Below, one piece after another: positions 327 to 30,461 of a stretch of DNA of 32,726 nucleotides. Position 1 is the first letter of the stretch, and each line of letters begins with the position of its first letter. The DNA is from Candidatus Hydrogenedentota bacterium (GTDB taxonomy: Bacteria > Hydrogenedentota > Hydrogenedentia > Hydrogenedentales > CAITNO01), in contig JAAYBR010000098.1 in the NCBI GenBank assembly GCA_012730045.1, positions 1 to 32,726 of the forward strand, written 5' to 3'. Made by a program: the position numbers and the translations under genes. The notes below the pieces were generated by a model. It was not told the DNA's origin. It saw nothing but the letters and a program-made list of their open reading frames with translations, and ran no database searches.

Positions 327-355
327 TTGACTCTGGGAGCCTTTTGGGGTAGCAT
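327..355 (+). promoter_or_regulatory. Probable sigma70-type promoter of the Ig-repeat gene
   Basis: TTGACT at 327-332 (5/6 to the -35 consensus) is followed after exactly 17 bases by TAGCAT at 350-355 (4/6 to the -10 consensus). It lies in a locally AT-richer patch between the repeat and the 579 start. Transcription would begin near 362 and leave a leader of about 215 bases. Confidence 0.5.
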
Positions 356-578: not shown

Positions 579-1217
579 ATGTTGAAACGCGTCCTCTTCC
601 CCATGATGGTGCTCCTCTGCGGGGCACTCCTCCTCCCCCCACCGGCAATGGCCGCCAACGAGCGGGACATTGACTTCGACTGGATCGGCACCATGCTCGA
701 CACCCTGCTGTCCGGGTTCATCCCGGGGCTCGGCGTCCGGCTGGCGGATGCCGACCGCGACGGCGACGGCATCAACGAAGATGATGCCCTCGCCCTCCTC
801 AGTGCCGTGTTGCGGGGGGGCACCCGCGTGCCCACCTCCGTCATCAGCGCCGCCGACCAGGAGCAGATACGGGCGGACTTCGTGGCCAACCGCGACGCAG
901 TGCACAATGACTTTCATGTGTACGGAGAAAGACAGTTACTATTTTTCCGGCCGGCCGATGAATTCCTGCGGGGACAGTACGGGAACGAGCGGATTCCCTC
1001 CGTGCTTACCGACGTGCTCGGTGCCCATGGCGGGTCCCTGACCAGGGAACTGTTGCTGGACTACATGGCCGGACTCGTCACCATTGGCAACAACACCACC
1101 TCGTTCACGGCCATCAATGGTGACTTCATCGGCAAGCTGATTGACGCCCTGTGCGCCAGCATGGAGAATCAGGACCTTGCCGGCTTGGACAACATGTGGA
1201 ATTTGCTTCGCGCATAG
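579..1217 (+). CDS. Exported N-terminal piece of the Ig-repeat surface protein (ends at in-frame TAG)
   Basis: This 212-residue product starts with a classical Sec signal peptide: K3-R4, then a hydrophobic stretch to about residue 25 ending PAMA-A. Near residues 58-75 is a calcium-loop/dockerin-like segment (DADRDGDGINEDDA). The rest resembles a helical region found ahead of Ig-like repeats in large surface proteins, but I do not recognise a named family. The start follows GAAAGGG with about 8 bases spacing. The stop TAG at 1215-1217 is in the same frame as the 2773-residue ORF that follows, with only five codons between the stop and that ORF's GTG. I infer that both are one ancestral gene in which a sense codon (perhaps TAT/TAC) became TAG. 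Alternatives are a sequencing error or programmed readthrough. As it stands this piece would be secreted alone, without an anchor. Confidence 0.75.
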   Translation: MLKRVLFPMMVLLCGALLLPPPAMAANERDIDFDWIGTMLDTLLSGFIPGLGVRLADADRDGDGINEDDALALLSAVLRGGTRVPTSVISAADQEQIRADFVANRDAVHNDFHVYGERQLLFFRPADEFLRGQYGNERIPSVLTDVLGAHGGSLTRELLLDYMAGLVTIGNNTTSFTAINGDFIGKLIDALCASMENQDLAGLDNMWNLLRA

Positions 1218-1232
1218 AAGAGCAACAACGGT

Positions 1233-4200
1233 GTGTATCTTAACTCCGGAAACAGCGCCTACCGCCGCTGGGGCACGAGTCCCACCTCCGGCAGGCGCAA
1301 CGTGTTTGGCCCCGGCGGAAACTTCAACAACACGGGCAACACCAACCTCCAGAGCTACTCCGCTGCGGGTGGCGTGGCGATCCTTCCCACCGCCACCACC
1401 TGGCCCCCCAACACCTGGCGCGAGGCGTTCATGACGGGGGAGGGGATCACGCAGCATCCCATCCGCATCACGAACCAGCCCGCTGGCACCCCGCAGGTCA
1501 CCCACATTACCAACGGCGACCAGAAAGTGAGCGGTTCCTGGACGCTGGGCACCGGCTGGGACCGGTGGAACCAGGGGCAAACGGACTTTGGAGGGCCAGA
1601 GTATTTCTGGGTGCTCCGGAAAGCCGCCGGCAACACCAACGAGGTGACGCAGACCCAGGCCCAGCAGCCTGCGGCGGCCAAGATCACCGAGGGCGTGACC
1701 TACCGTGTGGAGTTCGCCTACCGGTGGACCAACGACGATGACGCGACGCAGAGCGCAAACGGAATCAGCGTGGCTCTGGGCACCAGCGTTTCCGGCACCT
1801 TTACCTCCACCAACGAAAACTGGCACAACGAGGTTGTCTACCTCACGGCTGGCGGGGCAAACCCCTCCTTCCGCATCATCCCCACGGCGAATTTCGCAGG
1901 CCTCGTGGACAACGTGCGCGTGAAAGTGGCGGCGTTGTCGGGGGACGAGTTGGACCTGGGTGTCGTCACCCATGTCGGCGGCACCGGTCCCATCACCCGG
2001 GTCTGGGAGGATGCCCACAGTTTCCCGAGCTCGGAGGGGGGAAACCAGCTCAACAACGGCTCTTTTGGAGACAACCCCACCGACAATGCCCGGTGGACTC
2101 TTGGGTCTTTCGGCTGGCAGGAAAATGGCGGGCCCCTTAGCGTTATCCCCTCCGAGCGGGTGAGGAAGACCGCTAACGGAACAGGAGCGCTGGTGCAGCT
2201 TTCGACCAGCATGAAGCGTCCGCTCATTCCGGGGCAGCGCTACATTGTCAGCTACACCATCCGCCTCACTGCGGGCACCGTGCAGGCCTCCCTGGGCGGC
2301 ACTGCGGGCCTGGTCCGGACCTCCCCCATCGGGGCGGCCAACAACGCGTATGGGGCCTCAGGGGGGGATGGCTCTTTCCCGAACTGCGAAATGATGAAGG
2401 AATTCATCGTCTGCGGGTCCGGCACGCAGGACTTCCGCATCACCCCCAGCAATGATGCCCGGTGCGAGATCACGGTCTGCGATGTCCGCCTGTTCAACTA
2501 CTACGAACTCGACCCGTACTGGACGGGCGACCCGCCCGGCAGCCGGACGCCGGATTTCGTGGCCGACGGCAACGGCTACGCCGGCCTGGCAACGAACCAC
2601 CTCCAGTTCTCGTACCTGCTGCCCAGCCACAACAATATCAAGCCGTGGCTGCGCCACTCGGACACCTACACCTCGCCGACCTATACCTCCGCGACCATCT
2701 ACAACCCGCCCGATCCGCTTGGGGCGGTTCCGCCGAACGCGATTGCGGCGGACGCCCTGGGCGGCCGCACGACACGGATGGCCGTCATTGAGGTCGGCTG
2801 GCGGGCGCCTGAGATTTACCCGCAGCCGACCGACCAGACCGTGCCGCAGGGCGGCACCCTCACGCTCACCTCGGGTGCGCGCGGCGGCGACAGCGTGCCC
2901 ACCTACCAGTGGCAGAAGAACATCTCCGGCACGTGGACAAACATCGCCGGCGCCACGTCAAAGACCTACACGAAGTCGGGCGTGGTTTCGGGCGACGCCG
3001 GCCAGTACCGCCTTCTGGCGACTTGGCCCGCCCCGACGTCCATGAGCATTGGATCCAACATCGTCACGGTGACCGTGGTCCTGCCGCCGAGCATCGTGTC
3101 GCAGCCTGTCGGCGGAAACAAGGCCGTGGGCGGCAGCCATGACTTCTCCGTCACCATCAGTGGCGGCGTGCCCCCCTACACCTACGGCGGCTACGTGAAC
3201 GGCGTTTGGGCCGCAGACATCGGGCCGACTGCCGACACCACCGCGACTTTCACGCTCAGCCCGCTGGTGGCCGGCAACCAGGCGGACTACTTTATCCGCA
3301 TCACCGACAACTCCGGCGCGTGGGTGGACACCAACACGGTCACGCTGACGGTGCTCGCCATTCAGACGCAGCCCGTCCCGGACACGGCGACCACGGGAAC
3401 GGCCGCGTCCTTCTCCGTCACCCCGCTCGCCGGCAGCGGCGTGCCCGGCTACACCTACCGGTGGTTCAAGGACGGCACCCTCATTCCCGGCGCCACCAAC
3501 GCCACCTACGACATCGCGGCCTGCGTCATGGCCGACGCGGGCAGCTACACCTGCGAGGTGCGCGACAGCGCCGGCGCCATTCTGGTGTCCAGCGCGGCCG
3601 TGCTCACGGTGAATGCCGCGGCCATGTCCGTCAACATCGCCGCCGCCCCCGCGAGCCCGATCTACCTGACCCAGAGCACCACGCTCACGGCGACGGTGAA
3701 CGGCGGCTCCGGGTTCGCCAAGACCTACCGGTGGCAGAAGGGCGGGGTGGACATCCCCGGCGCCACCAACGCCACGTACGTGATCGGCTCCGCCACCGCG
3801 GGCGACGCGGGCGCCTACACCTGCATCGTCGGCGAGGCGGGGGTCCGTCCTCCGGCGGCCCTGGTCACGTCCAGCACCCTGCCCCTCGCGGTGAACGTCG
3901 CGACGATCAGCATCGCCCCGCAGCCCTCGGGCGGGTCGCGGTTCGTCACGCAGACGTTCAACTTCAGCCTCACGGCCACGGCGCCCGCCGGCACCCTGTC
4001 CTACCAGTGGCAGAAGTACAACACCGCGACGTCAACGTGGGTGAATGTGGCCGGCGGCTCCGGCGCCACCACCGCCTCCTACACCACGGCGGCCCTCACC
4101 CTGGCCGACGCCGGGGACTACAGCTGCCTGGTCACCTGCACGGCGAACCCCACCCCGCAGCGCAGCAACACGGCGACCCTGGTGGTCAACCCCCGCACGC

Positions 4201-7200
4201 CGGTGCTCACGGGCCCGAACAGCCCGACGGTCTATGTCAGCCAGACGGCCACGATCACCGTGGGCGCGACGGAGCCTCTGGGCGGCCCCATGAACTACCA
4301 GTGGCAGCGGCTCAACGGCGCGGTGTGGGAGAATGTGGTCGGCGGCTCCGGCGCCACCACCGCCTCCTACACCACCCCGGCCCTCGCCATCGGTGACAAC
4401 GGCGCGCGGTACCGCTGCATTGTCACCAGCACGGCCGACGGATCCACCGCCACCAGCGCCGACGGCGTGGTGACGGTGCAGAACATTCCGGTGAGCATCA
4501 CGGTCCATCCGTCCAACGCCACCCGGTACATTTCCCAGACCGCGGTGTTCTCGGTGACGGCGGCCGCGCCGCCCGTGGGCGCGAACACCTACCAGTGGCA
4601 GCGGCTCAACGGCGCGGTGTGGGAGAATGTGGTCGGCGGCTCCGGCGCCACCACCGCCTCCTACACCACCGCGGCCCTGGTCCTCGCGGACAACAATGCG
4701 CAGTTCCGGTGCGTGGTCGGCAACACCCTCGACCCGGGGGCTTCGGCCAACAGCAATGCGGCCACCCTGACCGTGCAGATTGTCCAGGCCGCCATCACCA
4801 CCCAGCCCGTGGGCGGGTCGCGGTTTGTCAGCGAGTCCTTCACCTTCTCCGTGGAAGCGACGCCCCCGCCCCTCGGTTCGCCGACTTACCAGTGGTACAA
4901 GGACGGCACGCTCATCTCCGGGGCCACCAACTCCACCTACACGCGGTCCCCGCTCGTGGGGGCCGACTCGGGCAGTTACACCTGCGTGGTTGGCAACACC
5001 GTGAATCCCGGCCAGGGAACGGTCACCAGCAATGCGGCCGTTCTCACGGTGACCGAGTCCCCCATCGTGTTCTCGCAGCAGCCGGCGGGCGGACAGAAGT
5101 ATGTCGGCGGCTCGCACAGCTTCACCGTGGCGGTCACCGGAAATGTCGGCACGGCCACCTACCGGTGGCAGAGTGCAACGGCTCTCGCCGGGCCTTACAC
5201 GAACATCGCCGGCGCGACCAGCGCCACCTACGACATCCCGGTTCTGGCTCTGGCGAACGAGCGGTACTACCGCTGCTGGGTGGGCGACAACGCGCGGCCC
5301 TCGCAGCTGCCCGAAGTCCTCTCCAACCCCGTCCTGCTGGAGGTCCGGAACCCCGTCTCCATCTCGGTGCAGCCGGTGGGCGCCAACCTCGCCGCAGGCG
5401 CGTCGCACACCTTCAGCGTCACCGCCGCGGGCGGTTACACCCCGCTTAACTACCAGTGGTACCGCGGCGCGGTCGCCGTGGGCGGCAATTCCGCCACGCT
5501 GGCCCTCACCAACCTCACCTACGCCGACCAGGGCGTGTACACCTGCGTGGTGTCTGACAGCCTCACCAGCACGGCGACGACGGCCAACCGGACCCTGACG
5601 GTGCTGGAAATCCAGTCCCAGCCGGCCGGCGGCGACAAGGTGCCCGGACAGTCCCACACCTTCTCCATCGTGGTCACGCCGAACAGCGGCGTGCCCGGGT
5701 ACACCTACCAGTGGAAGAAGGACGGGACGAACATTGCCCAGACCGGCAGTTCGTTCACCATCGGCTCGCTCGTGGCCGGCGACACGGGCACCTACACCTG
5801 CGAGGTGCGGGACGCGGCAAACGTCCTGATCGTCTCGGCAAACGCGGTGCTGAACGTCACGGCCAACCCGATCAACTTCACCACCCAGCCGGCGGGCGGC
5901 GCCATGTGGGTCACGGAATCCCACAGCTTCCAGGTGGTCTGCACGGGCGGCACCGGCGCGCTCACCTACCAGTGGGAGAAGCACGATGGCGCGGCGTTCG
6001 TGCCTGTCGGCGGCGCCACCAGCGCCACCTACACCATCGGGTCGCTGGCCGATGCGGACTCCGGCCGCTACCGCTGCCGCGTCGGCGACACCACGCGGCC
6101 CCCGGAGCCCTACGCCTACTCTGACGAGGCGGTGCTGACCGTGAGCCTGGTCGTGCCCAACATCACGGCGCAGCCCGAGGGCGGGGCCAAGTACTTCACG
6201 CAGTCGCACACCTTCAGCGTGACCGTGGCCTCCCCGCCCGTGGGCTCCCTCTCCTACCAGTGGCAGAAGGACGGGGCAAACATTGCCCAGACGGGCAGCT
6301 CGTTCACCATCCCCAGCCTCGCCGCCGGCGACGCGGGTGACTATCAGTGCCTCGTCACCTGTTCGGCGAATCCCGTGGCCACGCCGGCGACCCCGTCCAG
6401 CCTGGTCACCCTCTCGGTGTCGAACATCCCGGTCACCATCACGGACCAGCCCGACCCGGCCACCCGGTATGTGAGCGAGTTGGTCTCCATGACCGTGGTG
6501 GCGGAGAGCCCCGCGGACACCACCGGCACCATTCTCTATGTGTGGCAGAAGAACACCGGCACGTGGACGAACATCGGCGTCACCACGCCGACCCTGACGC
6601 TGAACAACCTGCAGACCACGGACGGCGGAACCTACCGCTGCCGCCTGTACAACAACGCGAACCCCGCCGGAACCTTCGTCTACACCGACCAGGTGGTCCT
6701 CACGGTGAACAACATCCCGGTCTCCATCACGGCCCATCCGGCCCCGGCGACCCGGTACATCTCGCAGACCGCAGTGTTCTCCGTGACGGCCGCCGCGCCG
6801 CCGCTGGGCGCAAACACCTACCAGTGGACCAGGGACGGGGTGGACATCCCCGGCGCCAACTCGGACAGCTACACCACCGGCGCCCTGACGCTGGCGGACA
6901 ATGGCGCCCAGTTCCGGTGTCGTGTCAGCAACACCCTCGACCCGGCGTCCATTGACACCAGCAACGCGGCGCAGCTGACGGTTGAGATTGTTCCGGCTGC
7001 CGTGGTCACAGACCCTGTTGGCGCCACGAAGTACGTCAGCGAGTCCCACACCTTCTCCGTGGTGGCGGCGGTTCCGCCTGCGGGCGCGCCGACCTACCAG
7101 TGGCAGAAGAACGGGGTGGACCTTCCCGGGCAGACGGGCGCGTCCCTCGACCTGACCGACCTGCAGCTGGCCGACAGCGGGAGTTACCGCTGCGTCGTCG

Positions 7201-9554
7201 GCAATTCCGTGAATCCGGCTGGTCAGGGCACGGCCAGCAGCGCTGCGGCCCTGCTCACGGTGCAGCTGTCCGCGCTCACCATCTCCACGCAGCCCCTGGG
7301 CGCGCAGAAGGTCGTGGGCGGCAGCCACACCATGACGGTGGCGGCCTCCGGCGCCTTCGGCACGGTCACCTACCAGTGGCAGAAGGACGGCGCGGACCTT
7401 GTCGGCGAGAACGCCGCAGGCCTCGTTCTGTCCGACCTCCAGCTGACCGACGGCGGGTCCTACACCTGCCTGGTCGGTGACGCCTCGCGCACCGGCGGGG
7501 ACCGGATCGCCTCGAACGCGGCGGTCCTCGAGGTGCGGGTGCCCGTCTCCTTCACCGCCGACCCGGTCGGCGCGAACAAGAAGGCCGGCGACAGCCACAC
7601 CTTCACCGTCACGGCGGCGAACGGCTACATGCCCTACACCTACCAGTGGTACTGCGGCGCCACGGCCGTGGGCGGAAACTCCGACACGCTGGACCTCTCC
7701 AACCTGACGGCGGCCGACCAGGGCACCTACACCTGCGAGGTCACCGGCGCGGGCGGCACCTCGTCCACCAGCGCGGGCGCCCTGCTCACGGTTCTGGCCA
7801 TCCAGACCCAGCCCGCCCCGCAGACGGCGGACGTGCACGCGCCTGCCGCCTTCTCCGTGGTCGTGGCCGCCGGCAGCGGTGTGCCCGGGTACACCTACCA
7901 GTGGCGGTACAAGGGCGCGGACATCGCCGGCGCGACCGGCGCGACCCTGACCCTGCCTGACTGCCAGGCGGGCGCGCCGGACGGCGTGCCGGCTCCGGTC
8001 AACCCCACGGGAACCGAGGGCGAGTACTCCTGCGTCGTCACCGACAACGCCGGTGTGGTCCTCGTGTCCGACGGCGCGGTCCTGACGGTCACCGCCGATC
8101 CCCTGACGTTCTCCACGCAGCCCGTCGGCGGCAGGGCCTATGAGGGCGGCTCCTTCACCCTCACGGCCGCGCTGCAGGGCGGCTACGGCCCCGCGTACAC
8201 CTACCAGTGGAGCAAGGACGGCACGGACATCCCCGGCGCCAACGGCGCGACCTATGTGGTCAACCCGGTCACGGCGGCCTCCGGCGGTGTCTACACCTGC
8301 GCGGCCGGCGAGGCGGGCATCCGCCCGGCCCAGCTGCCGCTCGTTGTGTCGGATCCCGCCACCCTGCAGACGGCGCCGGCCCTCGCGGTCACCGCGCAGC
8401 CCGTGGGCGCCCACCTCTACGTCGGCGAGACCTTCACGGCCACGGTGGCGGCCACCGGTGGTTTTGGGACGCTCACGTACCAGTGGCGCAGGGACGGTGT
8501 GGACATCGGCGGGCAGACTGCGGCAACCCTGACCATCACCGGGGTCGGCGCGGCCGACGCCGCGTCTTACACCTGCGCTGTCTCGGACGAGCACACCGCG
8601 ACCGTCGTCTCCGACGCCGCCGTGCTTCAGGTGTCGCCCAACATCACGATCACGACCCCGCCTGTTGGCGCTGATCTGAACCCGGGTGACTCGTATACCA
8701 TGACCGCCGCCGCCACGGGCGGCAAGGGTGCCCTGACCTACCGCTGGACCCGCGGCGGGACCGAGGTGGGCTTCGGCCCCAGCTACACCATCGCCTCGGC
8801 GGGCATGGCGGATGCCGGCATCTACCGCTGCGAGGTGACGGACAGCGGGACCCCGGTGCCCCAGACCGTGACTTCGAACCCAGCGTTTGTCAACATCAAC
8901 GCGGTGTTCGGATTCTCGCGTCAGCCTGCAAGCGAGAAGAAGTACATCGGGGAGGACCTCGTCATCAACTGCGAGGTGGTGTTCAACACGGGCGACGTCA
9001 CCTATGTCTTCTACGACCCGCTCGGGCAGGTGATGGAGGGGTACTTCGCGTGGCCGGTCAATGAGCGCCGTTTGGGCAACCTGCAGGAGGCGAACTCCGG
9101 CAACTACTACGTGGTCGTGACGGACGACATGGGCACGCCCACCGACACGTCCGACGATCAGAGCATCACGTCGAACAACGCGCTGATCACAGTGCGGCCG
9201 CACCTCCAGATCGTCACGCAGCCGACGGGCGGCGAGGTGCCTCTGGGCGGCTCGGTCACCCTCACGGTGACCACGTCCGGCGGCCACCTGCCCATTGCCT
9301 ACGAGTGGCGCAAGGAAGGCAGCCCGGCGTCGCTTGGCAACTCGGCGACCCTGATCCTCACCGGTCTGGCAGAAGGCGATGCGGGCACCTACTACGTGAT
9401 GGCCATGGACAACCACACGGACATCGTCGAGTCGCAGCACGTCCAAGTGTCGGTCAAGAACGTCGGCGCGCCGGCGGCGGCGGGCCTCGGCCTGGCGCTT
9501 CTGGCGGCCCTGACCGCCCTCGGCGGGGCGGTGACGATCCGCCGCCGGAAGTAA
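1233..9554 (+). CDS. Giant Ig-like-repeat surface protein (2773 aa), lacking its own signal peptide
   Basis: Residues 1-526 hold two regions that look like carbohydrate-binding jelly rolls (about 85-235 and 269-425; each has the N-G...W-T-L-G...W pattern of CBM4/9-like domains). From residue 527 (DNA 2811) to about 2743 I count 24 Ig-like domains of 85-100 residues, each with a Y-Q-W core and usually Y-x-C-x-V in strand F. The tail is A-P-A-A-A-G, a hydrophobic helix and RRRK at the C-terminus, the layout of exosortase/PEP-CTERM-like sorting signals, so the protein is probably displayed on the cell envelope. The GTG at 1233 has a weak upstream purine run (AGAAGAG) and gives no export signal. 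The signal peptide sits in the same frame upstream (579-1217), beyond a TAG. The intended product is probably 579-9554. Role inferred: adhesion or polysaccharide/cell contact. Two hairpins close the transcript. Confidence 0.85.
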   Translation: MYLNSGNSAYRRWGTSPTSGRRNVFGPGGNFNNTGNTNLQSYSAAGGVAILPTATTWPPNTWREAFMTGEGITQHPIRITNQPAGTPQVTHITNGDQKVSGSWTLGTGWDRWNQGQTDFGGPEYFWVLRKAAGNTNEVTQTQAQQPAAAKITEGVTYRVEFAYRWTNDDDATQSANGISVALGTSVSGTFTSTNENWHNEVVYLTAGGANPSFRIIPTANFAGLVDNVRVKVAALSGDELDLGVVTHVGGTGPITRVWEDAHSFPSSEGGNQLNNGSFGDNPTDNARWTLGSFGWQENGGPLSVIPSERVRKTANGTGALVQLSTSMKRPLIPGQRYIVSYTIRLTAGTVQASLGGTAGLVRTSPIGAANNAYGASGGDGSFPNCEMMKEFIVCGSGTQDFRITPSNDARCEITVCDVRLFNYYELDPYWTGDPPGSRTPDFVADGNGYAGLATNHLQFSYLLPSHNNIKPWLRHSDTYTSPTYTSATIYNPPDPLGAVPPNAIAADALGGRTTRMAVIEVGWRAPEIYPQPTDQTVPQGGTLTLTSGARGGDSVPTYQWQKNISGTWTNIAGATSKTYTKSGVVSGDAGQYRLLATWPAPTSMSIGSNIVTVTVVLPPSIVSQPVGGNKAVGGSHDFSVTISGGVPPYTYGGYVNGVWAADIGPTADTTATFTLSPLVAGNQADYFIRITDNSGAWVDTNTVTLTVLAIQTQPVPDTATTGTAASFSVTPLAGSGVPGYTYRWFKDGTLIPGATNATYDIAACVMADAGSYTCEVRDSAGAILVSSAAVLTVNAAAMSVNIAAAPASPIYLTQSTTLTATVNGGSGFAKTYRWQKGGVDIPGATNATYVIGSATAGDAGAYTCIVGEAGVRPPAALVTSSTLPLAVNVATISIAPQPSGGSRFVTQTFNFSLTATAPAGTLSYQWQKYNTATSTWVNVAGGSGATTASYTTAALTLADAGDYSCLVTCTANPTPQRSNTATLVVNPRTPVLTGPNSPTVYVSQTATITVGATEPLGGPMNYQWQRLNGAVWENVVGGSGATTASYTTPALAIGDNGARYRCIVTSTADGSTATSADGVVTVQNIPVSITVHPSNATRYISQTAVFSVTAAAPPVGANTYQWQRLNGAVWENVVGGSGATTASYTTAALVLADNNAQFRCVVGNTLDPGASANSNAATLTVQIVQAAITTQPVGGSRFVSESFTFSVEATPPPLGSPTYQWYKDGTLISGATNSTYTRSPLVGADSGSYTCVVGNTVNPGQGTVTSNAAVLTVTESPIVFSQQPAGGQKYVGGSHSFTVAVTGNVGTATYRWQSATALAGPYTNIAGATSATYDIPVLALANERYYRCWVGDNARPSQLPEVLSNPVLLEVRNPVSISVQPVGANLAAGASHTFSVTAAGGYTPLNYQWYRGAVAVGGNSATLALTNLTYADQGVYTCVVSDSLTSTATTANRTLTVLEIQSQPAGGDKVPGQSHTFSIVVTPNSGVPGYTYQWKKDGTNIAQTGSSFTIGSLVAGDTGTYTCEVRDAANVLIVSANAVLNVTANPINFTTQPAGGAMWVTESHSFQVVCTGGTGALTYQWEKHDGAAFVPVGGATSATYTIGSLADADSGRYRCRVGDTTRPPEPYAYSDEAVLTVSLVVPNITAQPEGGAKYFTQSHTFSVTVASPPVGSLSYQWQKDGANIAQTGSSFTIPSLAAGDAGDYQCLVTCSANPVATPATPSSLVTLSVSNIPVTITDQPDPATRYVSELVSMTVVAESPADTTGTILYVWQKNTGTWTNIGVTTPTLTLNNLQTTDGGTYRCRLYNNANPAGTFVYTDQVVLTVNNIPVSITAHPAPATRYISQTAVFSVTAAAPPLGANTYQWTRDGVDIPGANSDSYTTGALTLADNGAQFRCRVSNTLDPASIDTSNAAQLTVEIVPAAVVTDPVGATKYVSESHTFSVVAAVPPAGAPTYQWQKNGVDLPGQTGASLDLTDLQLADSGSYRCVVGNSVNPAGQGTASSAAALLTVQLSALTISTQPLGAQKVVGGSHTMTVAASGAFGTVTYQWQKDGADLVGENAAGLVLSDLQLTDGGSYTCLVGDASRTGGDRIASNAAVLEVRVPVSFTADPVGANKKAGDSHTFTVTAANGYMPYTYQWYCGATAVGGNSDTLDLSNLTAADQGTYTCEVTGAGGTSSTSAGALLTVLAIQTQPAPQTADVHAPAAFSVVVAAGSGVPGYTYQWRYKGADIAGATGATLTLPDCQAGAPDGVPAPVNPTGTEGEYSCVVTDNAGVVLVSDGAVLTVTADPLTFSTQPVGGRAYEGGSFTLTAALQGGYGPAYTYQWSKDGTDIPGANGATYVVNPVTAASGGVYTCAAGEAGIRPAQLPLVVSDPATLQTAPALAVTAQPVGAHLYVGETFTATVAATGGFGTLTYQWRRDGVDIGGQTAATLTITGVGAADAASYTCAVSDEHTATVVSDAAVLQVSPNITITTPPVGADLNPGDSYTMTAAATGGKGALTYRWTRGGTEVGFGPSYTIASAGMADAGIYRCEVTDSGTPVPQTVTSNPAFVNINAVFGFSRQPASEKKYIGEDLVINCEVVFNTGDVTYVFYDPLGQVMEGYFAWPVNERRLGNLQEANSGNYYVVVTDDMGTPTDTSDDQSITSNNALITVRPHLQIVTQPTGGEVPLGGSVTLTVTTSGGHLPIAYEWRKEGSPASLGNSATLILTGLAEGDAGTYYVMAMDNHTDIVESQHVQVSVKNVGAPAAAGLGLALLAALTALGGAVTIRRRK
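4295..4376 (+). repeat. 82-bp exact direct repeat, copy 1
   Basis: It is identical by eye to 4589-4670 (offset 294 bases, one Ig domain). It encodes the same 27-residue core in domains 6 and 7. The flanks differ, so this looks like recent gene conversion or a slippage tract rather than a whole-domain duplication. Confidence 0.75.
4589..4670 (+). repeat. 82-bp exact direct repeat, copy 2
   Basis: Second copy of the tract at 4295-4376, inside Ig domain 7. The bases immediately outside it (4588 and 4671) already mismatch copy 1. Confidence 0.75.
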
Positions 9555-13597: not shown

Positions 13598-13811
13598 GGG
13601 TATAACATCCACAGGGGACGGGGGGTGCCGCCAAACCAGACACCAGCCCGCGCCCCTACTCTTGGGATAATACCCCTTTTCGCCGGATGGTTCCACCCCG
13701 GGCCGGGCTAACACCTCCTGAACAATTATGGGGTATGATACTTCCAGCATGCCGGACGGTGGCCGGCCTCATGCCGCGGGACGCGGCAAACCCTCCCTTT
13801 GGAAACAGCCC
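13598..13811. promoter_or_regulatory. Divergent promoter region
   Basis: 214 bases separate the divergent starts at 13597 (minus) and 13812 (plus). -10-like hexamers are visible: TATTAT on the minus strand (13672-13667) and TATGAT on the plus strand (13734-13739). Neither has a convincing -35 partner, so exact promoters are not assigned. Confidence 0.35.
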
Positions 13812-14576
13812 ATGAACACGCCAAGAAACTACCTTATAGACATGGACGGGGTGCTGGTGCGGGGACGCACGGCGGTCCCCGGCGCGCAGGACTTCATCGC
13901 GCGCCTGCGCGGGCGCGACGCCAAATACCTCGTGCTGACCAACAACCCCATGTACACCCCCGCCGACCTGGCGCACCGGCTCCAGAACAGCGGGCTCGAC
14001 ATTCCCGCCGACCGCATCTTCACCTCCGCCATGGCCACGGCCCAGTTTCTGCACTGGCAGCGCCCCCGGGGCACGGCCTTCGTCATCGGCGAGAGCGGCG
14101 TGACCAGCGCGCTCCACGAGGCGGGCTACATCATCACCGACCACGCCCCGGACTACGTCGTCCTCGGCGAGACCACCTCGCTGAACTTCGAGTCCATCAC
14201 CAAGGCCATCCGGCTGATCGCCGGGGGCGCCCGCTTCATCGCCACCAACCCCGACTCCTCCGGCCCCACGGAGGACGGCATCGTGCCCGCCTGCGGGGCC
14301 ATGGCGGCGCTCATCGAGCGGGCCACGGGCCGGTCGCCCCTGTTCATCGGCAAGCCCGCGCCCCTCATGATGCGCAGCGCCATGAACCACCTCGGCGTCC
14401 ACTCCCAGAACACGGTCATGGTGGGCGACCGCATGGACACAGACATCATCGCCGGGCTTCAGGCGGGCATGGACACCATCCTGGTGCTCAGCGGCGTCAC
14501 CGCGCCCGAGGCCATAGACCGGTTCCCCTACCGCCCGACCTGGGTGCTCAACTCGGTCGCCGACATCGAAGTGTAG
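13812..14576 (+). CDS. nagD: HAD-IIA phosphatase, NagD type
   Basis: 254 residues, close to the 250 of E. coli NagD and recognisably similar along its length. It has DMDGVLV (nucleophile D10, D12), [42 protein letters not shown] and [10 protein letters not shown], covering HAD motifs I-IV with the C2a cap of NagD. Known NagD dephosphorylates nucleotides such as UMP and other small phosphates in the cytosol. The ATG at 13812 is chosen because homology begins there; the in-frame extension upstream to 13728 has no conserved content. Only 8 bases separate its stop from the MFS start, so the two are co-transcribed. Confidence 0.9.
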
Positions 14577-20191: not shown

Positions 20192-20293
20192 GATGCGCCC
20201 TTTCCATGCCGCCGCGGACATTGTGGGCCAAACCCCCGCGCCCGCGCAAGCGGGAGGGGAATGGCCGCAGGAAAAGCGCACCCCCCGGGAGGC

Positions 20294-20381
20294 ATGGACA
20301 GGATGGACAACATGGACAGGATGGACAACATGGACAGGATGGACAACATGGACAGGATGGACAACATGGACAGGATGGACT
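20294..20381. repeat. 18-bp minisatellite (four full units and one partial)
   Basis: Units ATGGACAGGATGGACAAC start at 20294, 20312, 20330 and 20348, with a partial unit to 20381. Each unit is two 9-mers, ATGGACAGG and ATGGACAAC. There are no spacers, so it is not CRISPR. It lies in the 239-base gap between the FG-GAP gene and the macro-domain gene, both on the minus strand. Confidence 0.95.
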
Positions 20382-27128: not shown

Positions 27129-30100
27129 ATGCGGTCTTTCTTTCTGATGATCCCGCTGCTTCTCGCCGCCGCCGCGCAGGGGCAGCCCCTGGCGGGGCTC
27201 TACGGCGTGGAACTGGACGGGTCCCCGTGGGGACCCGTGGCCGGGGCGGCCGCCGCCGCCTTCACTGAAGCGGGATACACGGTGGAGCGTCTGCCGGAAG
27301 ATTTCTTCTCCGGCGGAACACCGCCGGACCTCTCCCGCTTCGCGGTGCTGGTGCTGCCGGATGCCGGACGCCTTCCCAAGGATGCGTTGTCCGCGTTGGA
27401 GGCCTTCGCACGGCAGGGGGGAGGCATCGCCGCGCTGAACACGCCGCTGGGACGGGAGGCGCTGGTGCCGCTGAACGGGCGGTGGATGACCGTGCCCGCC
27501 TTCCGCGAGGCCTACGCGGCGGAGACGCCCAAGACGCCGCTGGTGGATTTTGCCGCCGAGGACATCTCCACCTGGCGGCCGGGTTTCCGCACGGCGGAGA
27601 TGGCGGGGAAACACACGGTGGCCAACGGCGCGCTCCTGGTGGAAATCGCCAAGATGGACGGGTGGGACACCTTCGCCAAGGACTTCGCGTCGTCCCCCTT
27701 TCCCGGCGGGCACACCGCCACCCTGGTCCGCGCGCGCGCCGTCCGCAACGCCACCCATCTGGCGGTGGAGTGGACCGAGGCCGACGGATCCCGGTGGATC
27801 GCCTCCATGCCCCTGTCCCCCGAATGGCGGGACTATGTGCTCACGCCGGAGGACTTCCATTTCTGGGAGAGCGTGCCCGCGCGCGCCGGCACGGTGTTCA
27901 ACCCGGAGAACGCCCGCAGCCTCACGCTGACCCAGGCCTTCACCCACACGGGCTACGCCGACCGCGACCTGGCCTACGAGGTGGCGACGGTGCACACCGC
28001 CCCGCTCTCTGAAGAGGCCTCGGCCGCCCTGCGCGGCCACAAGCCCGTGAAACTGGAAACGCTCTGCCCCGCGTACAAGTTCTTCCCTGTGGCCGACACG
28101 GCGCGCATGCGCGCCCGCGGGTGCCTGGAGGGGATCGGCGACCCGGGCCTGCCCGGCGCGTTCATGGGGCTGCACCCGCGCCCCACGCCCAACGGCTTCG
28201 ACAAGGGGCGCGCGTATGCCTGGGAGCCCCTGCTGGCCGCCGAGTCCGCCTCGGGCGACTACCGGGGTGCCGTTGCCGCGCTGATGACCCATGCGGACGG
28301 CCCCTTTAAGGGCTCCCTGTGGGCCTCCTTCGCCGTGCAGGACCCCGCATGGTACCTGTCTCCGGCGGGGGGCGAAGCCCTGGCCCGCACGGCGCGGCGC
28401 ATCAAGGAACCGGTGGTGCTGGTGGACGGCGGCGCGGACTTCTTCACCTGCCTGGAGGGGCAGGAGCTGCGTCTGGGCGCCACCCTGTTCAATCGCGGCC
28501 CGGAGGCCGTGGAGGGGCTCCGCGTGACCGCCTCCCTGACGGTCGGCGGCGCGGCACCGTTTGAGGCGGCCGAGGACGCCGTGCGCCTCGCGCCGGGGGA
28601 ATCCCGGCAGATCGCGTTCCCCGTGCCCGCCTTTGACGGCGCCGCGACGGCCTCGGTGCGTGTGGAGCGCGGCGGGGAGACGGTGGCCGCCGCGGCGCAC
28701 GAGGTGCGGGAATGGAAACCCCGCGCAACGCCGAAGTACGTCACGGCGGCGGACGGGCGCTTCGAGCTGGGCGGCGCGCGTTGGCGGCCCCACGGCATCA
28801 ACTACATGCCGTCGTCCGGCGTCGCCACGGAGGACCAGCCGTATTTCGAGCGCTGGCTCAGCCGCCGCTCCTACGACCCGGAGGTCATCCAGCGCGACCT
28901 GGAGCGCTGCCGGAACATGGGGTGCAACGCCCTCTCCGTCTTCCTCTACTACGACGACCTTAAGGCGCAGAACCTGCTCGACCTCCTGCGGCGCATGGAC
29001 GCCCTCGGCATGAAGGCAAACGTGTCGTTGCGCCCCGGCACACCCATGGAGTTCCCCTGGGAACAGGTCCGCGAGATGATCACGTGTCTCCGCCTCGCGG
29101 AAAACGACACGGTCTTCGCCTACGACCTGGCGTGGGAGCCCCAGTTCCGCCCCTCCGAGCGCGACCCGTTCAACAAGGACTGGGAGGAGTGGATTATCGA
29201 GCGCTACGGCAGCCTGGAAAACGCCGAGAAGGACTGGGGCGCTCCCGTGCCCCGCGACGCCCGGGGAAACATCACCAACTTCACGGAGGAGATGATCGGC
29301 GTGGAGGGGCCGTGGAGCCCCATGATCGCGGCGTACCGCCGCTTCCTGGACACGCTGCTCTACGCGAAGTACAGCCGCGCCCGCGACCTCATTCGGCGGA
29401 TTGACCCGAACCACCATGTGAGCTTCCGCATGTCCATGGCGGGCGACCCCACGGACACCCAGCGGAATACCATGCTCTACGACTTCGCGTACTTGGGCGG
29501 CGCGGTGGACCTGTTTGAGCCCGAGGCCTACGGCCGCATCGGCGACTGGGAGCGCGTGAAGCCCGGGGCCTTCACCCAGACCTACGCCCGCTGGGCCAAC
29601 CCCGCCCTGCCCATGATCTGGGCCGAGGCCGGGGTCCATGTGTGGGACATGGCGTCCATGTCCGTCCCGGAGGACAAGCTCGCCTTCCAGGAGCGGTTCT
29701 ACACCGACTTCTACCGGATGGTCCTTGAGAGCGGGGCGGACGGCGTCCTCTGGTGGTGGTACCCCGGAGGCTTCCGGTCCAACGAGAACAGTGACTACGG
29801 CGTGATCAACCCCGACGGCACGGACCGTCCGGTGACGGCGGTGATCCGCAAACACGCCCCGCTGGTGGAGAACGCCCCCGACCCCGCGCCGGAGGATCTG
29901 CGGCTCGCCTTTGACCGCGACAGCCACACCAACGGCCTGTCCGGGGTGTACACCGCCCTGCAGGGGGAGTACTGGGACGCCGTGACGGCGGGGAAGACCC
30001 CCGGCCTGCGCACGGAGGGCACGGGCACCACATCGGCGGACTGCCCGCTCGTGGCCGTCGGCAACCGTCCCTGCACCGGGTCAAACCCGCCCAAATATCT

Positions 30101-30461
30101 TGATGCGTTTTTTGATGCCGTTCTGACCGGCGGAGGAAAACTGCTGGAGAGCGGCGCGACGGTGTCCGCCGCCGACCTGTCGCAGACCCCCTTCCTGGTG
30201 GTGACCCTGACCAATCTTGGCGAGGCCGCCCTGCTGGGCGGCGTGGACGCGGCGGGCCCCGGGACCGTCATGCTGACCGTGACGGCGGGAGGGGCGGCGG
30301 AGTCCGTGCCCCTGCCCCGGACGCTGGCCCGGTTCGAGCGGACCCGCGTGCGCGTGCCCCTGCCGAAGGGATGGCAGGCCCCCTGCGACTTGGTCCTCTC
30401 GCTGGAGGCGCGGGAACGGACGCCCTTCGGGCCGCGTCCCCGGATTTCGGTTGCCCCCTGA
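27129..30461 (+). CDS. Large exported glycoside hydrolase-like protein (clan GH-A barrel)
   Basis: 1110 residues; AAGGAG then a T-run precede the ATG. A Sec signal peptide (residues 1-18) is followed by a ThuA/GATase-like flavodoxin fold (20-135), a beta region (~150-430), an Ig-like sandwich (~438-528), and a TIM barrel from about 547 (RWRPHGINYMPSSG). The barrel carries ALAWEP-type acid/base (E670 in LAWEPQF) and nucleophile (E833 in IWAEAGVHVW), then WWWYPGGF. Those two glutamates fit a retaining GH-A enzyme such as GH5/GH42/GH2-like. The C-terminal 150 residues are beta-rich. It should cleave a beta-linked plant or animal glycan outside the cell. The exact family is not assigned. It runs into a terminator shared with xylA. 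Confidence 0.8.
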   Translation: MRSFFLMIPLLLAAAAQGQPLAGLYGVELDGSPWGPVAGAAAAAFTEAGYTVERLPEDFFSGGTPPDLSRFAVLVLPDAGRLPKDALSALEAFARQGGGIAALNTPLGREALVPLNGRWMTVPAFREAYAAETPKTPLVDFAAEDISTWRPGFRTAEMAGKHTVANGALLVEIAKMDGWDTFAKDFASSPFPGGHTATLVRARAVRNATHLAVEWTEADGSRWIASMPLSPEWRDYVLTPEDFHFWESVPARAGTVFNPENARSLTLTQAFTHTGYADRDLAYEVATVHTAPLSEEASAALRGHKPVKLETLCPAYKFFPVADTARMRARGCLEGIGDPGLPGAFMGLHPRPTPNGFDKGRAYAWEPLLAAESASGDYRGAVAALMTHADGPFKGSLWASFAVQDPAWYLSPAGGEALARTARRIKEPVVLVDGGADFFTCLEGQELRLGATLFNRGPEAVEGLRVTASLTVGGAAPFEAAEDAVRLAPGESRQIAFPVPAFDGAATASVRVERGGETVAAAAHEVREWKPRATPKYVTAADGRFELGGARWRPHGINYMPSSGVATEDQPYFERWLSRRSYDPEVIQRDLERCRNMGCNALSVFLYYDDLKAQNLLDLLRRMDALGMKANVSLRPGTPMEFPWEQVREMITCLRLAENDTVFAYDLAWEPQFRPSERDPFNKDWEEWIIERYGSLENAEKDWGAPVPRDARGNITNFTEEMIGVEGPWSPMIAAYRRFLDTLLYAKYSRARDLIRRIDPNHHVSFRMSMAGDPTDTQRNTMLYDFAYLGGAVDLFEPEAYGRIGDWERVKPGAFTQTYARWANPALPMIWAEAGVHVWDMASMSVPEDKLAFQERFYTDFYRMVLESGADGVLWWWYPGGFRSNENSDYGVINPDGTDRPVTAVIRKHAPLVENAPDPAPEDLRLAFDRDSHTNGLSGVYTALQGEYWDAVTAGKTPGLRTEGTGTTSADCPLVAVGNRPCTGSNPPKYLDAFFDAVLTGGGKLLESGATVSAADLSQTPFLVVTLTNLGEAALLGGVDAAGPGTVMLTVTAGGAAESVPLPRTLARFERTRVRVPLPKGWQAPCDLVLSLEARERTPFGPRPRISVAP

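Follow-up and report, generated by a model that had tools for sequence, protein, structure and literature searches.

An in-frame TAG divides a predicted giant Ig-domain surface protein gene in a Candidatus Hydrogenedentota genome

Comparison with relatives from the same order shows that two neighboring reading frames in an uncultured environmental Candidatus Hydrogenedentota bacterium are, as judged from sequence, a single gene that one sense-to-TAG change has interrupted and not two genes, because a full-length orthologue and a conserved N-terminal module both run through the TAG and because seven sibling proteins sharing the same C-terminal tail are each encoded by a single open reading frame (ORF). 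The most likely explanation is a recent nonsense mutation or a strain polymorphism, which would make this an ordinary, recently broken gene.

Results

One TAG in an otherwise open frame

The window, i.e. the whole stretch of DNA analyzed here, is a complete 32.7-kb contig (C98) of a 4.46-Mb MAG of 155 contigs. The frame from 579 to 9554 is open apart from one TAG at 1215-1217, which ends an upstream ORF of 212 aa (579-1217). The 2778-codon open frame that follows has its first GTG at 1233, from which a downstream ORF of 2773 aa runs in the same frame to a TAA (1233-9554), and five codons (1218-1232, AAG AGC AAC AAC GGT) lie between the TAG and this GTG. GC3 is high both before and after the TAG. 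The 212-aa piece carries a clear N-terminal signal peptide (MLKRVLFPMMVLLCGALLLPPPAMA) and no anchor, and matches no family in Pfam or NCBIfam; the downstream piece contains ~18 Ig_3 matches in a Pfam scan and a hydrophobic tail ending in RRRK, and has no signal peptide. The first-pass annotation had described both this geometry and the division of signal peptide and sorting tail between the two pieces, and sequence and translation bear it out. The features of the locus, all on the plus strand, are as follows.

327..355, possible sigma-70-like promoter (TTGACT-17-TAGCAT), weak, upstream of the gene (consensus scan only)
579..1214, 5' portion of the gene, with the signal peptide and the first two thirds of the conserved Hydrogenedentota N-terminal module, with a DxDxDG Ca-binding-like motif and a GLVT/GYMT block (translation, homology in order genomes, identity to the orthologue)
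1215..1217, in-frame TAG, opposite a Glu codon of the full-length orthologue (alignment)
1218..1490, 3' third of the N-terminal module, conserved across the TAG, pattern Y-x(3)-G ... GxxG ... N...Y ... WRE...P.RI (invariant columns on both sides, orthologue)
1233..9554, GTG-start ORF from mechanical ORF calling (ORF list)
1491..2820 (approximate boundaries), middle region that the orthologue also has, lying after the N-terminal module and before the Ig repeats (pairwise alignment)
2821..9440, tandem Ig-like domains, boundaries approximate (Pfam scan)
9462..9554, C-terminal anchor- or sorting-like tail (hydrophobic stretch plus RRRK) and TAA (translation, tail in seven further proteins of the genome)

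The gene leader also contains a perfect inverted repeat at 421-441 (ACAAGTGCC-GTG-GGCACTTGT), and an Rfam search of the window returned no match. Elsewhere in the window we observe a perfect tandem repeat of an 18-mer in 4.9 copies at 20293-20380 (CATGGACAGGATGGACAA) and a 1110-aa ORF at 27129-30461 whose GC3 (0.91) is strongly coding and which matches no Pfam family.

Homology across the stop

The full-length orthologue (L127:2201-9136, minus strand, in G047:C41) comes from a different family of the order and is a single ORF of 2311 aa, shorter than the ~2990 residues of the window gene, comprising a signal peptide, the N-terminal module, the middle region, an Ig array and a hydrophobic tail with a basic end. 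It is 48% identical to the window gene over 2186 aligned residues, identity being 51% upstream of the TAG and 46% over the 212 columns that follow it. The stop lies opposite a Glu codon (GAA) within an ungapped conserved block, NMWNLLRA-stop-K in the window and NMWAVLRQEK in the orthologue (NMWxxLRx[stop/E]K), and the orthologous frame continues without a break across this position. We found no further full orthologue in the 68 genomes of the phylum that were searched, none in the genus or family of the window, and no relative when genome contigs were searched with the window protein alone. The only full-length orthologue thus belongs to another family of the order, a patchy distribution that suggests transfer or repeated loss.

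The N-terminal module provides a broader comparison. In an alignment of the window sequence (with X at the stop) and ten order-level relatives, invariant columns are found before the TAG (e.g. D35, D37, G40, L47 and N80) as well as after it (Y204, G208, G220, G223, N232, Y236 and R257). A profile search of 68 genomes of the order yielded 54 module matches, ~20 of which cover the TAG-equivalent position; only the window sequence has an internal stop, and the 53 others have none. The named relatives carrying the module are Candidatus Hydrogenedentota. The first-pass annotation had proposed a single sense-to-TAG change; the Glu in the orthologue and the module running through the site in the order relatives support this proposal, and none of the homologues found is arranged as two separate genes, the module being a single ORF in all relatives.

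The module itself, ~230-280 aa long, recurs in Hydrogenedentota surface proteins (window 579-1490; L002-L020, L069-L098) and consists of a signal peptide, a DxDGNG motif, an AGYMTxGD block and an NYLGxxGDxDxNG block. It is uncatalogued, with no significant Pfam, NCBIfam or PDB match. In its predicted structure (mean pLDDT 65) the TAG-equivalent residue falls in a low-confidence helix, and a Foldseek search of this model against the PDB returned nothing significant.

Same-frame neighbors and the two-gene alternative

The base rate of same-frame adjacency was estimated from 432 kb of the same genome (20 stretches plus the window), using a codon model that flags a stop when it has 60 coding-like open codons in frame on each side. 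Twenty-three stops were flagged, including the window TAG. By eye, the 22 others separate ordinary neighboring genes or reflect weak coding calls, most having a start codon within a few codons downstream, and inspection of the sample recognized no other split gene. In-frame adjacency by itself, part of the original argument for a single gene, is therefore real at this site but weak evidence, since same-frame neighbors are common in this genome. It is the homology across the stop that exceeds chance and decides the one-gene case.

Gene fission, with a genuine secreted protein of 212 aa followed by an independent Ig protein that starts at GTG 1233, would draw some support from this abundance of same-frame neighbors and from a weak SD-like AGAAGA 11 nt before the GTG. 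However, the stop lies inside a module that is uninterrupted in every relative, and the second ORF would bear a cell-surface tail without a signal peptide, unlike all seven tail-bearing siblings. Contradicted by both the orthologue and the module that span the TAG, two separate genes are extremely improbable.

A shared C-terminal tail

The C-terminal tail of the window gene recurs in other proteins of the genome. In full sequence, each of the seven tail-bearing siblings combines a signal-peptide-like N-terminus and the tail within a single ORF; a further weak match is present on contig C143, and among the tail-bearing proteins of the genome a split was seen in the window gene alone. The tail can be written ~[LV]PxAGGxGLxxLA...RRRK and is found on eight exported proteins (window 9462-9551; L116, L154-L158, L160). 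It resembles IPTL-CTERM, VPEID-CTERM and similar signals in placing a hydrophobic C-terminal segment before arginines on exported proteins, but differs from them in that all tail matches score below the curated cut-offs of the known CTERM models in NCBIfam (the best IPTL_CTERM scores are 15.5 bits, for the window tail, and 18.3, for a paralogue on C84, against a cut-off of 20.5). Judging by sequence, the shared tail is possibly a Hydrogenedentota-specific sorting signal.

TAG as a stop codon in this genome

TAG is a normal stop here. Of 122 long, strongly coding ORFs in the sample, 39 (~32%) end in TAG. In the window it also ends nagD (13728-14576, as noted in the first-pass annotation) and at least three more genes with matched domains, and the other TAGs in the 432-kb sample act as terminators. 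RF1 is intact (509.7 bits against a cut-off of 423), no CTA-anticodon tRNA occurs among the 43 distinct tRNAs found (a few may be missing from the MAG), and pylS is not found above cut-off in the genome. These observations agree with the earlier judgment that wholesale TAG recoding is unlikely, and the intact RF1, the usage of TAG and the other stops of the sample rule it out.

Compared with known readthrough and recoding systems (suppressor tRNA, pyrrolysine, UAG reassignment), the locus is alike in having an in-frame TAG followed by a conserved frame. It differs in the lack of any detected CTA tRNA or pylS, in the presence of RF1, in the use of TAG as a common terminator without loss of RF1 or avoidance of TAG, and in the fact that the in-frame TAG is not conserved in relatives. 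Searches for pyrrolysine or suppressor-tRNA decoding thus found nothing, and a readthrough-stimulating RNA structure can likewise be set aside, as the 101 nt that follow the TAG show no more stable folding than shuffled sequences (z = -0.47).

Leaky termination would not need such machinery: near-cognate decoding of UAG could give a little full-length anchored protein, perhaps enough to be useful. The downstream frame is intact and its similarity to the orthologue is nearly that of the upstream part, frequent readthrough of bacterial in-frame stops has been proposed (PMC7918605), and the tRNA-Lys(CTT) of this genome is unpaired at 27-43. Against it stand the absence of the TAG from every relative, the intact RF1, the unremarkable downstream RNA, the failure to find a suppressor tRNA or pylS, and the other TAGs of the sample, which terminate, so we regard this possibility as rather improbable. 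A more specific version, in which the TAG is tolerated through low and perhaps regulated readthrough, for instance by the tRNA-Lys(CTT) with its four-pair anticodon stem, and a trickle of anchored giant Ig protein accompanies a secreted N-terminal fragment that makes up most of the product, seems very unlikely.

The G27-A43 mismatch, which leaves a 4-bp anticodon stem, is confined to tRNA-Trp(CCA) and tRNA-Lys(CTT) among the 43 distinct tRNAs (two of 43; G000:C127, L045, and G000:C84, L031). The same mismatch in Hydrogenedentota tRNA-Trp has been linked to UGA readthrough, in an account whose consulted portion makes no mention of the Lys case (PMC13092985). One further locus (L068, G000:C109:4998-5272) gives a weak tRNA match that resembles only the 3' half of a tRNA of the Val(TAC) type and may be what is left of an attachment site.

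Age and origin of the stop

Other than the TAG, the 2991 codons of the gene contain no stop or frame break. Under a simple neutral substitution model, in which ~2.5% of changes would create a stop, the lack of a second lesion bounds the neutral divergence since inactivation at ~1.3% (95% bound), and the fact that the remaining ~2780 codons are open indicates that the change is recent or still segregating. The absence of a second lesion would also fit a consensus error. Selection maintained by readthrough would likewise be compatible with it, and with the long intact frame downstream.

Consensus or assembly error, in which cells of the population carry a sense codon here and the consensus of the MAG is wrong or reflects a minority base, has several points in its favor: the sequence comes from a MAG of many contigs, all other homologues are open and the gene is otherwise intact. 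However, the TAG site is neither a homopolymer nor a repeat, and isolated substitution errors are rare in assembled consensus sequence. We consider such an artefact unlikely.

A reversible off state resembling phase variation had also been suggested, and on/off switching is biologically plausible for a surface protein. The sequence gives it no support: the stop is of the substitution type, no simple repeat lies nearby, no inverted repeat surrounds the TAG except for one 12-nt pair upstream, and no invertible element was found at the gene. No known switching mechanism based on repeats or inversion therefore applies, and a phase-variable state is scarcely credible.

The preferred reading, a recent or segregating nonsense change, has close parallels among the nonsense-interrupted genes and single-stop pseudogenes described previously (PMC7918605), which likewise carry a lone in-frame stop, are otherwise intact, have an open orthologue and are expected to be short-lived; the window case differs in being known from one genome of its species. 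According to that survey, in-frame stops in bacterial genes for the most part last only as long as population polymorphisms do; its authors also argue that many are read through and that a single such stop marks a pseudogene poorly (PMC7918605).

Discussion

The locus comprises one gene, one stop and normal TAG usage. The ancestral single gene would have encoded a giant Ig-domain surface protein of ~2990 residues, exported and anchored at its C terminus; in this genome the premature TAG stands at residue 213, inside the conserved N-terminal module. We infer that the stop is probably real in cells and the product truncated. Translation would most likely end at the TAG. The cell would then secrete a short fragment, the Ig array with its anchor would not reach the surface, and a protein initiated at GTG 1233, if there is one, would lack a signal peptide. 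The change may be recent or still segregating, as a strain-level nonsense polymorphism.

The main consequence is for annotation, where the two predicted genes should be merged into one that is interrupted. A TAG that is real and segregating would be a simple example of how a very large surface protein is gained or lost in an uncultured phylum. If it is read through, the locus would offer a test of whether tRNAs with short anticodon stems allow UAG leakiness in Hydrogenedentota.
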